From the NCBI RefSeq assembly GCF_000585495.1, contig NZ_CP007264.1, forward strand, positions 1,426,001-1,490,000: DNA of 64,000 nt, written 5' to 3'. How positions within the stretch are numbered: the stretch's first letter is position 1; every line of letters starts with the position of its first letter. The DNA is from Thermococcus nautili (lineage in GTDB: Archaea; Methanobacteriota_B; Thermococci; Thermococcales; Thermococcaceae). Positions 1,475 to 47,554 of the stretch are shown here, in pieces. The position numbers were made by a program, and so were the translations under genes. The notes below the pieces were generated by a model, which saw nothing but the letters and a program-made list of their open reading frames with translations, searched no databases and was not told where the DNA came from.

Positions 1475-1650
1475 CTGACCTCCTCCCCGCTCTGGAGGGT
1501 TAATCCCTCACTAATGACGGGGAGGTTTGAGGGGTTTCATTCAAACCCACTAAAAAGTGGGTCTTCGACCCCTCTGGCCGGGTCTTCGGCCAGTTACCCC
1601 TCCTCTGAGCGTACAAACCGCTCAGATTCGGGGTTATGGTCGTCACAACC
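1475..1650 (-). ncRNA. Candidate omega-RNA scaffold at the right end of the TnpB element
   Basis: The 3' end of tnpB and the right end can fold into a chain of hairpins: ACCCC...GGGGT enclosing CTGAGCG/CGCTCAG, then TGGCC/GGCCA with loop GAAGACCC, then ACCCACT/AGTGGGT, then a terminal GC-rich hairpin ending in GGAGGAGGTCAG. In known TnpB systems this region is the RNA guide scaffold, with the guide being the flanking DNA just past the right end. The same fold with compensatory changes occurs in the TnpB-less element at 25492-25860. Transcription and exact ends are inferred. Confidence 0.65.
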
Positions 1651-2810
1651 TTCCTCAAAATGTTGAAAGCTCCAACTAAATCCGCGTTAAAGATAAGCCC
1701 CGTCACGGGACACTTAAACAATCCTCTAACAAAGCGAGCCCCCTCGTGGGGCTTCCCGCAAACGGGGCAAAGCTTAGAAGTGAAAGCCTCATTCACAACT
1801 TCAACAGAGATACCATACTCTTCAGCAACTTCTGTCAAGCGTTTAATGACGTAATTAAACCGCCAAACATGAGAAAGGATAAAATTCTGCCTTTTGCCCT
1901 TATCAGAATTCCGAGCTATTCCCTTTGGATAGCCGACGACAATTCTCTTAACTCCCGACTCGTAGAGCTTCTTAACCGTTTGTCTTACCGCCGTGTTAAT
2001 GTAGTGCTTTGCTTGAAGTTTGGCCTTTTCGTGCATTCTCTTGAGTTTTCTACTCGTTTTGGCTCCACTCTTGTTGAGTTTCGACTGATACTCAGCAATC
2101 TTCTTCCGCCAGTAGAAGTCAATGCTCTTCAAAGGCCTTCCATTCACGAGGAAGCTTTCCCCGTTTTCCACATAAACGGCCATGAGATTGTTCACTCCCA
2201 AGTCAATTCCTGCAGAGAGGTTTCCTCTTGGAGTTCTTGGGAGTTTAATCCACTCCCCACTCTCAAGTTTTTCCTCGACTGCGAGGCTTACGTGAGCATA
2301 CCATCTCCGCTTTACGGGGTCGTAGATGATTTCTAAGCGACCCTGCTTCCCCTTCAGGTGTATTCTACCCTTGAACTGGATTTCGAGACGTTTGAACTTT
2401 CCAAGACCCTTTAGAATGAGCTTATTCCCTTCAATCCTGTATTGGTCGTTTCTGAGAACGATTAATGGTTTCCTCCTCCCGTTTTCTTTGAGGTAGTTTG
2501 GTGGTTTGGGCTTAAGCCAGTTGGGAAGTTCTCCGTTCCGCTTCTTCCGGAGGAGTGAGAAGAAGCTTCTCCAAGCCTCGGCGTTTTTGCGGCATATTTG
2601 TTGAACGGTTGCAGAGCCGATTTCCCGCTTAAACTCATCATAAACGGTTTTCTCAGTCTTGTTAAAGTCCACGATTTGCTCTTTGAAGAATTGTTGTCGT
2701 CTAAGATAGTTTACTTGGTTCCAGACTTTAGCTTCAGTGTCCGCTAACTGGTGGAGGGTTTTCGCCTGCTCTTTTGAGGGCTGGAGTTTAAGCGTTACAG
2801 TTCTCTTCAT
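1500..2810 (-). CDS. tnpB: TnpB, RNA-guided nuclease of IS200/IS605 element
   Basis: 436 residues, normal for TnpB. The split RuvC catalytic residues are all present: D in AGIDLGVNNLMAVYVE (about residue 206), E in VEVVNEAFTSKL (about 344) and D in FNADLVGAFNIL (about 379). The zinc-finger insert begins with CPVC but ends KCPVTG, so the usual fourth Cys is replaced by Thr; the His in CGKPHEG might substitute as a ligand. The N-terminal half is basic, as expected for binding guide RNA. TATA-like CTTTTAAAG lies about 35 bases before ATG 2810. Known family role: guide-RNA-directed DNA cleavage next to a short TAM, which helps the element to persist. No frameshift is seen, so it may be functional. 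Confidence 0.95.
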   Translation of the reverse strand: MKRTVTLKLQPSKEQAKTLHQLADTEAKVWNQVNYLRRQQFFKEQIVDFNKTEKTVYDEFKREIGSATVQQICRKNAEAWRSFFSLLRKKRNGELPNWLKPKPPNYLKENGRRKPLIVLRNDQYRIEGNKLILKGLGKFKRLEIQFKGRIHLKGKQGRLEIIYDPVKRRWYAHVSLAVEEKLESGEWIKLPRTPRGNLSAGIDLGVNNLMAVYVENGESFLVNGRPLKSIDFYWRKKIAEYQSKLNKSGAKTSRKLKRMHEKAKLQAKHYINTAVRQTVKKLYESGVKRIVVGYPKGIARNSDKGKRQNFILSHVWRFNYVIKRLTEVAEEYGISVEVVNEAFTSKLCPVCGKPHEGARFVRGLFKCPVTGLIFNADLVGAFNILRKVVTTITPNLSGLYAQRRGNWPKTRPEGSKTHFLVGLNETPQTSPSLVRD

Positions 2811-2879
2811 TCTAAAGTGTAGTATGAATTTTAGGCTTTAAAAGAGTGTCGCTTTCTCGCTTAAAGACTGTTGGGTTGT

Positions 2880-4184
2880 TTACTGCATCCCCGCCCTAAA
2901 GGACGAGGCATTCAAAAGAATAAAGTAAACCGTCGCCCCGACGCGGAGGTTCGTCAGGACTGCGAGGAGCGCGAAGAGCGCCCTAACTGCGAGGCCCGAA
3001 GGAACGAGCAGGAACAGCATCGTCAGGAAGACCCTCTCGTCTCTCTTCCCGGGGAGCTTTCTGAGGGCGGGAACTTCCCGATATGCGTCCCTGCAGAAGG
3101 CCCCCTTAAAGCGCTCGGTCGAGTAGCTCACCATGACCGAACCGAGCAGAGCTAAGAGCGCGACCAGATACCAGAGGGGCTCTTTCAAAGCTGAGTAAGC
3201 AAGGAGCGCGAGGAAAGAGCCGTCAACGTAGCGGTCGAGGATTGAATCCACGTAGCCACCGAGCCTGCTCGTCCTCAGCTGGGCCCTTGCGAGCTCGCCG
3301 TCAACGCCGTCGAGGATTGAGCTCAGCTGGTAGAGGATTCCAGCTAAAGGCAGGCTGACGAGCGTTAGGAAGGCCGAGAGCACGCCGAGGGCGAAGGTGA
3401 CGACCGTCATCTGGTTTGGAGTGACCTTCTCAACGAGGAGATAGCTGATTCTCGTCGAGATTTTCCTGTTGAGGTGTCGGCTGATGAACCCGTCGCCGGT
3501 CCCCTTGACGGCCGTGAAGATGAGCATCTTTCGGGCCCTCTTGAGCTCCTCCGGCGTGTCCACGTCGGTCCAGCCGAAGCCGTCAACGAAGGTAACCGGA
3601 AGCCCAGCGCGCTCGACAACCTCGCTGAGGGAGTAGTCGCCGTTCCTCTCGTTTTCAAGCTCCTCCGTTACTTTGAAAATCCCTTCATCGAGGACGAGGA
3701 AGCCCGTATCCACGGCATCCCATTCTTTAAGGCCCTTCCCGATTCGCTCGACCCTGCCGTCCTTCACCTTAACCTTCGTCGCCTCGTCAACGTCAATCCA
3801 CCCCGGCCTTCGGTCCGCTATGAGACCGTTTCCCTTTATGGCCTCCGCAACGAAGGCCTCGCTGTAGACGTGGTCGCTCATGACGAGGACGAACCGCTCG
3901 GAGAGGTGGCCCTTGGCGAGGTGGAGTGAGTGACCGTTGCCCTTCTCGGGCTCGGGGTTTATCACGAGCTCGGCGTTGAAGCCGTTCCTCTCAACGAACT
4001 CGCGGTAAAGGGGCGCGTACCGCTCGTTGGTGACGATTAGGAAGCGCTCAACGCCGTTCCTCTGGAGGAGGTGCATCGTTCGGTACAGAATCTCCCTTCC
4101 GGCAACCCTAACGAGGCCCTTTGGCCTTCCGCCCATCCTCGTCCCAAGGCCTGCCGCGAGAATCACTGCCGTTTTTGGAGTCAT
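2880..4184 (-). CDS. Bifunctional inositol-1-phosphate cytidylyltransferase / DIPP synthase (IPCT/DIPPS)
   Basis: Two fused enzymes for DIP, the thermal-stress solute of hyperthermophiles. Residues 1-225 are a nucleotidyltransferase (VILAAGLGTRMGGRPKG near the N-terminus) that makes CDP-inositol; the C-terminal half is a membrane CDP-alcohol phosphatidyltransferase with the signature DGVDGELAR...GGYVDSILDRYVD at about residues 292-321, which condenses CDP-inositol with inositol 1-phosphate. The start at 4184 is preceded by GGTGATG; ATG 4190 and GTG 4193 are alternatives. The last 14 residues (FILLNASSFRAGMQ) and the stop codon are encoded by the left end of the inserted IS605 element, replacing about 12 native residues. 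The catalytic motifs are untouched, so the enzyme probably still works. Confidence 0.94.
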   Translation of the reverse strand: MTPKTAVILAAGLGTRMGGRPKGLVRVAGREILYRTMHLLQRNGVERFLIVTNERYAPLYREFVERNGFNAELVINPEPEKGNGHSLHLAKGHLSERFVLVMSDHVYSEAFVAEAIKGNGLIADRRPGWIDVDEATKVKVKDGRVERIGKGLKEWDAVDTGFLVLDEGIFKVTEELENERNGDYSLSEVVERAGLPVTFVDGFGWTDVDTPEELKRARKMLIFTAVKGTGDGFISRHLNRKISTRISYLLVEKVTPNQMTVVTFALGVLSAFLTLVSLPLAGILYQLSSILDGVDGELARAQLRTSRLGGYVDSILDRYVDGSFLALLAYSALKEPLWYLVALLALLGSVMVSYSTERFKGAFCRDAYREVPALRKLPGKRDERVFLTMLFLLVPSGLAVRALFALLAVLTNLRVGATVYFILLNASSFRAGMQ

Positions 4185-4276
4185 CGGCATCACCTTTTTA
4201 AGGCCCTCAAAGAGGCCCCATCAAGAGAACCAAGATTAAATTAACCGCAGGTAATTTAAAGCTTTCGGTGATGGAA

Positions 4277-25298: not shown

Positions 25299-25491
25299 GT
25301 GTGTCGGTTTGATTATTCCTTTTTATAGTTAACGCTCGGCGGGAAAAACCGATAAATACTCCAATCCCGATGATTTTAGGGTGCAATCAATGGGCTTGAG
25401 CAGAAGGGAGCTGATAAGAAAGCTCTGGCACGTTTCGCCCGGAATCCTTGGGGCACCGATAATACTCTTCACGCCAAGATGGGCACTTTAC

Positions 25492-25860
25492 CACCCCACG
25501 AGCCTTAAAACACCAAAACCTTTTTAAGTCTTGCAAGCGTAATAGAATCTCGGAGAGGCCACCGTAAAACAACCCAAGCTGGATGAGGTGTTTCAAGTTA
25601 CCCTCCAGCATTGGAGGGTTGACGCCGTAAGGCGTCCTTATCAAGAACTGCCCGTTGTGGCAGTTAAAAGCTCTAATGGTGGCCTCCAAGCCATAACCCC
25701 AATCCGGCTTCGCCGGTAGGGGTAACGGGCCGAAGACCCGGCCCGCGGGCTGAACCGAAAGGGGCAACCCGAGTAAGTAATGGGCCCGCAAACCGAACCG
25801 CCCGTTAGCGAGGGGTTAACTCGTTGGAACCCTCGCCCTTCAGGGCGGGGAGGAGGTCAG
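25492..25860 (+). mobile_element. TnpB-less IS605-derived element (MITE-like)
   Basis: 369 bp directly after TTTAC, ending CAGGGCGGGGAGGAGGTCAG, the same right-end sequence and the same target as the TnpB element at 1475-2924. It has no open frame of note. Inside are a TATA-like box and a long chain of perfect hairpins. The left end lacks the GC-rich hairpin seen in the TnpB element, so mobilisation in trans would need a different left-end recognition or the element is now fixed. Confidence 0.8.
25550..25860 (+). ncRNA. Candidate stand-alone omega-like RNA
   Basis: TATA-like CCTTTTTAAG at 25519-25528 predicts a start near 25550. Downstream, GAGGCCACC (25555-25563) pairs with GGTGGCCTC (25679-25687), enclosing CCCTCCA/TGGAGGG, GACGCC/GGCGTC and AACTGCC/GGCAGTT hairpins. 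Next come ACCCC/GGGGT enclosing CCGGC/GCCGG, GGGCC/GGCCC with loop GAAGACCC, GCGGGC/GCCCGC, and a terminal GC hairpin. The part from CCATAACCCC onward matches the right-end scaffold of the TnpB element with paired base changes. Expression and function are inferred. Confidence 0.65.
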
Positions 25861-26387
25861 TCGTCGTCTGGTCGCTGGCTTTCCTCTACACACTTCAGCA
25901 TCTCAAGCTCCTCCGCGGCTGGAAGTTCACCGTTCCAGTAGCGGACCTCAGTTACCGAACGATGGCACGGGAAGACGAGCGCGACAACTTCCTCGGAAGC
26001 TTTCTCTTCTGGGTGACGATGGGGATTATCTGCACGGTCTTTCCAAAGCTCATGGCGCTCTCGGCCCTGTGGGTCTCGACCTTCGGCGACTGCTTCAACG
26101 CCATTGCCGGACAGGCCCTCGGCGGACCGAGGATTCCCTGGAACCCTCGAAAGACCCTAATCGGAAGCGCAACGATGTTCATTGTTTCAGTTCTGGCCCT
26201 CTGGGGTGCACACAGGGTCCTCTCGCTCGACCCGAGCTGGGGCATTATCGCAGGCGTCGCCCTTCTCGCCACTCTACTCGAAAGCCTTCCCCTCCGCTCG
26301 GCCTACGACGAGTTCACGGTTCCCTTCGCAACAGCTCTCCTCCTGTGGCTCGTCTACGGTGGGTCTCTGCTGTCGCCGGTGTGGTGA

Positions 26388-47498: not shown

Positions 47499-47554
47499 GG
47501 CGATGACGAGCCTCACGGTAGCTGAAGAATGATGAGGGGTATACTAACCGAGCC
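47499..47554 (+). ncRNA. Box C/D sRNA 1 of a tandem pair
   Basis: Box C ATGACGA (47503-47509), 12-nt guide, box D' CTGA (47522-47525), 3-nt spacer, box C' ATGATGA (47529-47535), 12-nt guide, box D CCGA (47548-47551), terminal stem GGC/GCC. TATA-like TTTTTTAAG at 47469-47477 is about 25 bases before the predicted 5' end. The D' guide GCCTCACGGTAG can pair over ten bases with UACCGUGAGG, which I recall as part of the universally conserved 23S rRNA segment AGUACCGUGAGGGAAAGG, predicting methylation of the second C of UACC. Confidence 0.87.

Follow-up and report, generated by a model that had tools for sequence, protein, structure and literature searches.

The right ends of two mobile elements in the window, that is, in the whole 64,000-nucleotide stretch of DNA analyzed here, probably both specify a TnpB guide-RNA scaffold (omegaRNA, or reRNA), and the RNA of the second element would work with TnpB in trans. 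The window is part of the 1.98 Mb single-contig genome of Thermococcus nautili (G000). Element 1 lies on the minus strand and carries tnpB, a gene that the short element 2 lacks (Table 1). The sequence CCATAACCCC occurs in the window exactly twice, at 25691-25700 (+) and at 1639-1630 (-), against a chance expectation of 0.04. An earlier sequence-only reading had pointed to shared stems and a conserved loop in this segment; all of them are present in both elements when the sequence is read directly, although the segment of element 2 begins at 25691, slightly before the 25700 given in that reading.

In element 1, the scaffold would lie inside the 3' end of tnpB, the same bases serving as RNA stems and as the C-terminal tail of TnpB; the RNA would be made from the tnpB 3' end, and its putative guide would run onward from the scaffold into position 1474 and below. 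In element 2, the same scaffold stands behind a promoter-like motif and a folded 5' domain some 140 nt long; the element would thus have an RNA of its own, whose final part would be a guide copied from the adjoining chromosomal DNA. Since element 2 has no tnpB and carries a promoter-like motif and two domains, an RNA of about 310 nt is its only likely product.

Table 1. Features of the two elements (window positions).
Feature	Position	Strand	Details
Element 1, TnpB-encoding, IS200/IS605-type	1475..2924	-	After TTAC (2928-2925), end GGAGGTCAG; sequence read
tnpB, 436 aa	1500..2810	-	PF01385, PF07282, NF040570 guided_TnpB; last codons overlap guide-RNA scaffold
Element 1 guide-RNA (omegaRNA) scaffold, putative	1475..1639	-	CCATAACCCC to element end
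Element 1 P1 around P2	1596..1634	-	P1 ACCCC/GGGGT (1634-1630 with 1600-1596); P2 CTGAGCG/CGCTCAG
Element 1 P3	1574..1593	-	CTGGCC (1593-1588) / GGCCAG (1579-1574), loop GAAGACCC
Element 2, TnpB-less	25492..25860	+	After TTTAC (25487-25491), end GGAGGTCAG; empty site in G032 (L272), copy comparison
Promoter-like motif, BRE + TATA	25515..25527	+	AAAACCTTTTTAA; column conservation, 81 copies
5' RNA domain	25555..25686	+	Closing helix GAGGCCACC (25555-25563) / GGTGGCCTC (25678-25686)
5' domain hairpins	25601-25607/25612-25618, 25621-25626/25631-25636, 25646-25652/25659-25665	+	
Element 2 guide-RNA scaffold, HgcC-like, putative	25691..25860	+	
Element 2 P1 around P2	25696..25723	+	P1 ACCCC (25696-25700) / GGGGT (25719-25723); P2 CCGGC/GCCGG
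Element 2 P3	25726..25745	+	CGGGCC (25726-25731) / GGCCCG (25740-25745), loop GAAGACCC, GACC 25735-25738
Element 2 P4	25745..25789	+	GCGGGC (25745-25750) / GCCCGC (25784-25789)
Element 2 P5, inside P4	25761-25763/25768-25770	+	GGG-GCAA-CCC
Element 2 right-end terminal hairpin	25831..25850	+	CCTCGCCC-TTCA-GGGCGGGG
GGTC, candidate pseudoknot partner of GACC	25855..25858	+	Partner at 25735-25738

The end of element 1 was set by rule, a G following GGTCA in 89/90 TnpB-less copies. With its TnpB as query, the relatives recovered belong to Thermococcus and other Thermococcales; TnpB matches are present in 82/94 genomes of the order and are strong (E < 1e-100) in 60/94. The T. nautili genome itself holds five tnpB-type and three TnpB-less right ends that could be assigned, and nine scaffold matches to model R1, which leaves one match unassigned. 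Element 1 sits at the extreme end of a gene for a bifunctional inositol-phosphate cytidylyltransferase/CDP-inositol transferase (NF041135; window 2880-4193, minus strand). Its TnpB family (window 1500-2810, minus strand) reads IVVGYPKGI at about the position of the RuvC-II glutamate in solved TnpB-like proteins, and the VG.P pattern is found there in 45/48 ORFs. A possible substitute Glu at V.EAFTSK was matched in 32 of these 48 ORFs and left unmatched in 16. A rearranged active site was reportedly described by Altae-Tran and colleagues in 2023, and that of this family may be similar.

For the covariation analysis, right ends were collected by patterns (ATAACCCC with one mismatch, a motif of the P1 3' strand, a motif of the P3 loop, and the 3' end), from which the stems P2, P3, P4, and P5 were absent; percentages for P1, the loop, and the pseudoknot are therefore overestimates. 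The 194 right ends found yielded 110 TnpB-type and 81 TnpB-less sequences, three loci (L240, off-target; L044; L046) being left out, and a 95% identity filter reduced these to 106 and 70, or 176 combined. A right end was classed as TnpB-type from a tnpB-like reading just upstream or from a short upstream piece in the scaffold search, the ORF being checked in some only; two TnpB-less copies without a right end were dropped. Covariation was scored with our own script, built on the idea of R-scape (Fitch-placed substitutions, G-test, APC) and distinct from R-scape itself.

Compensatory pairing is found in both kinds of right end. When the two elements are compared alone, the compensatory changes claimed by the earlier reading come down to one alignable double change in the second stem, where a T-A pair is replaced by G-C. 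The inner hairpins keep their pairing, but as they are of unequal length, two sequences do not suffice to claim base-by-base compensation for them. A larger alignment, which that reading had named as the test that could refute it, upheld the claim, since P3 covaries among 106, 70, and 176 sequences. With 59 right ends, 96.3% of cells pair in the P1-P4 structure and the covariation score is 0.319, a value reached by none of 500 shuffles, versus 0.034-0.140 when the partners are slid by 1-3 columns. In the phylogeny-aware test of the 106 TnpB-type sequences, the P3 pairs 48-65, 51-62, 52-61, and 53-60 pass with set E <= 6e-4; the corresponding all-pairs list contains 19 pairs at E <= 0.05, which lie mostly outside the structure (P3 offsets and poorly aligned P2/P5 columns). 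In the 70 TnpB-less sequences, P3 pairs 39-50, 40-49, and 41-48 and P5 pairs 70-79 and 71-78 pass the set test, a single P3 pair passes the all-pairs test, and at helix level P3 and P5 reach z values of 11.6 and 12.4, with 0/200 nulls as high. The P4 pair 54-98 also passes in this set, but as 25 of its cells are T-T it is not counted as pairing. For all 176 sequences, the all-pairs list has seven pairs at E <= 0.05, of which four belong to P3 (E <= 0.017), two are P3 offsets, and the seventh is an apparent P2 alignment artefact.

The remaining helices are less informative. P1 is 97-100% paired, a figure inflated by the collection patterns, and being almost invariant it gives no covariation evidence either way. 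P2 is kept as a hairpin whose length varies between subfamilies, with columns that are not alignable; when P2 interiors are folded alone, 84/88 distinct TnpB-type and 35/48 TnpB-less interiors fall within the best 5% of shuffles. Neither P1 and most of P4, which are nearly invariant, nor the terminal hairpin shows significant covariation. Two other folds of the 3' end, a long-range P6/P7 structure and a local one, were scored along with the terminal hairpin, and no significant covariation came out for any of the three.

The TnpB-type scaffolds are also held to the protein frame. The sequence-only reading had noted that part of the element 1 RNA encodes the TnpB C-terminus, and the ORF indeed crosses most of the scaffold, with its stop at 1502-1500. 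Across the right ends read, the TnpB frame stops 126-135 nt after the ACCCC start in 46/61. In 66 of the 74 TnpB-type sequences covered (out of 110; p 3e-23), the number of nucleotides between ACCCC and the usual stop motif is divisible by three, whereas in the 56 TnpB-less scaffolds covered (out of 81) the same distance is spread 21/20/15 over the frames (p 0.57). Similarly, the length of the P1 interior leaves a remainder of 2 on division by three in 104/106 TnpB-type sequences, and the two exceptions, L027 and L233, look like single-base losses. P1-interior lengths of the TnpB-less copies are uneven (22/37/13 over frames, p 0.002), with a bias that is not toward the TnpB frame. Together, the in-frame scaffold and P1-interior lengths indicate that the tnpB-bearing RNA changes in frame-keeping steps; judging from these lengths, the TnpB frame is lost in scaffolds without TnpB. 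At the level of sequence, this is evidence that selection acts on the structure of TnpB guide RNAs even as they overlap a protein-coding frame.

Pairing on this strand would be of use to the RNA and equally to the single-stranded DNA of the transposon, and covariation alone does not decide between them. The earlier argument that the RNA, and not only the DNA ends, is under selection is supported, but by evidence other than covariation, which fits single-stranded DNA too. TnpA recognizes subterminal hairpins of IS200/IS605 elements, and it could be argued that the stems are kept as DNA hairpins for this Y1 transposase, with the RNA incidental; we regard this as very unlikely. IS200/IS605 elements do transpose in single-stranded DNA form and carry subterminal palindromes (PMC8612924), and the top strand is the RNA sense strand, so that pairing would serve both molecules. 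In the TnpB-less copies, moreover, the right-end hairpin resembles the left-end hairpin, and the 5' domain that characterizes them occurs in 22/25 genomes with TnpA vs 29/69 without it (p 6e-5). However, P1-P5 occupy a stretch about 70-165 nt from the end, at a distance from the terminal hairpin, and a search for TnpA (PF01797), which matches 25/94 genomes of the order, gave no match in G000 or in G022, a genome carrying the same insertion as element 2. The promoter-like motif, the reported transcripts of T. kodakarensis, and a plan like that of ISDra2, each of which is described below, favor RNA.

A conserved BRE/TATA-like motif stands just upstream of the 5' domain, at spacings of about 23 and 33 bp, and promoter element spacings of 23 and 33 bp have been reported (PMC4247193). 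At these spacings transcription would start at the edge of the 5' domain, which in element 2 corresponds to a predicted start at about 25546-25552. In T. kodakarensis, the HgcC1-3 transcripts arise in sense orientation inside the transposase genes TK0298, TK0495, and TK0850; HgcC4 and HgcC5 have no such link to transposase genes and are transcribed away from them (PMC4247193). Processed sense RNAs have also been described for two of six IS605 transposases in this species (PMC8303175), and such ncRNAs are cited as earlier reports in PMC8612924.

The HgcC family of Rfam (RF00062) matches element 2 at 41.8 bits (E 1.2e-6), below the curated gathering score of 50, and element 1 at 24.4 bits (E 0.057), far under it; the tnpB right ends scanned match more weakly than element 2, at 32 to 20 bits. 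The HgcC match extends from P3 to beyond the element 3' end and is obtained with both tnpB-type and TnpB-less right ends; P1/P2 and the 5' domain are outside it. Over the order, HgcC matches occur in 75/94 genomes and exceed the cut-off in 21. Ten over-cut-off loci were inspected: L114-L116 lie at the end of a close tnpB, three others have no visible TnpB, and L107-L110 stand beside a distant TnpB on the other strand. In genome G024, three tnpB genes among those listed (at 250, 425, and 743 kb) each have an HgcC match at the 3' end. HgcC and TnpB were never named together in the open-access papers searched, and our results support reading this orphan family as a TnpB guide RNA.

A locus of T. 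nautili itself, L283 (G000:C1:1594886-1594987, minus strand; HgcC 49.2 bits), has the same layout as L107-L110. The distant TnpB beside these five loci is 26-30% identical to P0001, and L107 has a TATA-like motif of its own, identified by eye. From their sequence, L107-L110 and L283 may represent a third layout of guide RNA and nuclease.

The scaffold also follows the plan of the ISDra2 guide RNA, in which the loop of stem 1 pairs near the 3' end and a late stem carries a tetraloop (PMC10097598). Here P3 would be stem 1: its loop sequence GACC can pair with a GGTC lying six to three bases before the guide, which explains the conserved loop noticed earlier. All four pairs are possible in 86/91 TnpB-type and 52/52 TnpB-less right ends with a recognized loop motif (of 110 and 81), a conservation that comes partly through the selection patterns and gives no covariation proof. 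In many copies, the terminal stem has a UUCA or UUUA loop, UUCA being the commonest, and the terminal hairpin of element 2 is likely, by analogy, the counterpart of ISDra2 stem 4. As in known TnpB omegaRNAs (ISDra2; PMC8612924, PMC10097598), the scaffold is located at the right end and in element 1 overlaps tnpB, a feature unmet in element 2, which lacks the gene; in addition, the putative guide would be the flanking DNA immediately after the scaffold, with a match to the empty site in the case of element 2. Unlike those RNAs, the Thermococcales scaffolds have an additional conserved hairpin pair, P1/P2, ahead of the core; the TnpB tail runs in frame across most of the scaffold; and TnpB-less elements put the scaffold behind a second RNA domain.

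Two other known systems can be compared. The sotRNAs likewise map in sense orientation to the 3' end of IS1341-type (tnpB) genes, including those of T. kodakarensis (PMC8303175), but in the seven loci scanned sot0042 (RF02656) scores 27.3 bits at best against a gathering score of 88. The PATEs of Haloquadratum share with the TnpB-less family the absence of protein, near-terminal palindromes, the absence of target duplication, and IS605-like ends (PMC3119063). However, the Thermococcales family has two RNA domains and a promoter-like motif, and no RNA figures in the consulted passages of the PATE description (PMC3119063). The TnpB-less family as a whole shows the PATE features, element 2 itself being without the left palindrome; of the IS200/IS605 features, it has insertion after a short motif without duplication and subterminal hairpins, and the T. 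nautili genome has no match to the Y1 transposase. In bacteria, a link between PATEs and omegaRNAs is said to have been made by Meers et al. in 2023.

The 5' half of element 2 was initially considered a tnpB relic, an idea rejected in view of its fold and conservation. Positions 25550-25690 fold far better than shuffles (z = -6.75), and the 5' half aligns over 90 fetched copies, some of them left-truncated. Element 2 is a member of a Thermococcales family with a promoter-like motif, a 5' domain, and the scaffold. At helix level, three hairpins of the 5' domain covary in 81 copies (z 4.1-4.8, 0/200 nulls as high); neither the closing helix (z 1.7) nor the AACCC/GGGTT hairpin (z 0.3) reaches significance in these copies. 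The signal consists of helix-level sums and single-pair p-values over 40 structural pairs, and no pair reaches E < 0.1 in the all-pairs test. No Rfam family matches the domain at E <= 5 in the three copies scanned from the T. nautili genome.

Model R2, which is mostly a sequence model because its RNAalifold structure held 13 pairs only, detects the 5' domain in 51/94 Thermococcales genomes and in no further genome among 115 of the phylum (21 outside the order, by subtraction); the order-wide searches used the stricter filters of Infernal, with which weak matches are lost. The domain co-occurs with TnpB, being present in 0/12 genomes without any TnpB match vs 51/82 with one (p 3e-5), and in 41/60 genomes with strong TnpB vs 10/34 without a strong match (p 5e-4). 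Ten of the 51 genomes have weak TnpB matches only. For these tests and that of TnpA, the genome grouping was read by hand.

These observations bear on the possibility that element 2 arose by deletion from a tnpB element and is now decaying, with an inherited scaffold that is a functionless relic. Such IS605 derivatives are known in Haloquadratum in the form of PATEs (PMC3119063), and element 2 has lost its left end: the left-end hairpin, recognized in 63/90 TnpB-less copies (51 of which have TTAC within 20 nt upstream), is missing both from the window copy and from the orthologue in G022. This orthologue is 91.1% identical to element 2, against 95.3% (128 columns) and 93.2% (470 columns) in the flanks, and it shows some broken pairs and an altered loop. 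As the element is conserved no better than its flanks, selection at the window's own site is not required, and the idea of such selection was dropped. Nevertheless, a 5' domain that is not tnpB recurs in 51/94 genomes with helix-level covariation, and P3 and P5 covary in 70 TnpB-less scaffolds though the TnpB frame is not kept there, and decay of this kind therefore seems to us improbable.

The insertion site of element 2 supports the guide-RNA reading. The host gene is uninterrupted in G032, where its sequence is ...CACTTTAC|TCGTCGTCTGG..., and the window reads ...CACTTTAC[element...GGAGGTCAG]TCGTCGTCTGG; at this site, the one examined, target duplication is absent. The putative guide starts at 25861 (TCGTCGTCTGG...). 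Since the empty site of this relative reads TTTAC + TCGTCGTCTGG, the guide would correspond to the unoccupied allele next to TTTAC, and TnpB from elsewhere in the genome could then cut empty alleles, thereby keeping the element. Alternatively, the TnpB-less RNA might not guide cutting at all but titrate TnpB (or TnpA), as a decoy or regulator: it carries the scaffold that TnpB should bind, and a decoy role has been suggested for circular omegaRNAs (PMC12558985). This is rather unlikely, as the 3' end is intact and is followed, in guide-like fashion, by host DNA that would match the empty site beside TTTAC.

We thus prefer to see in element 2 a guide-RNA gene, which is probably transcribed into an RNA of its own and would rely on TnpB supplied in trans; from the features above, we infer transcription in T. 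nautili, binding by TnpB, cutting, and any role of the 5' domain. For Thermococcales more broadly, the balance tips slightly toward mobile elements whose sole product is a two-domain RNA with its own promoter, which borrow TnpA and TnpB and in which the RNA has been kept by selection after loss of the nuclease gene. If so, guide RNA and nuclease have come apart here, as crRNA and Cas12 later did. Such TnpB-less elements could use the nuclease in trans, which raises the question of whether one TnpB serves many separate guide-RNA genes. The general kind of RNA is already known, and the TnpB-less two-domain family appears to be new here, no description of it having been found in the open-access literature, searched mostly at listing level.

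Four loci (L044:2499-2672, L127, L172, and L175) have scaffolds with the P2 length of the tnpB type behind a 5' domain sequence like that of TnpB-less elements, and these mixed layouts suggest that the modules recombine. The gene split by element 2 (window 25390-26387), intact in G032 and with homologues in further relatives, may be dolichol-kinase-like; its 3' part matches no Pfam or NCBIfam family at 1e-3. Elsewhere in the window, the C/D-box snoRNA sR51 (RF01305) at 47499-47553 (+) is the sole Rfam match at the gathering score.
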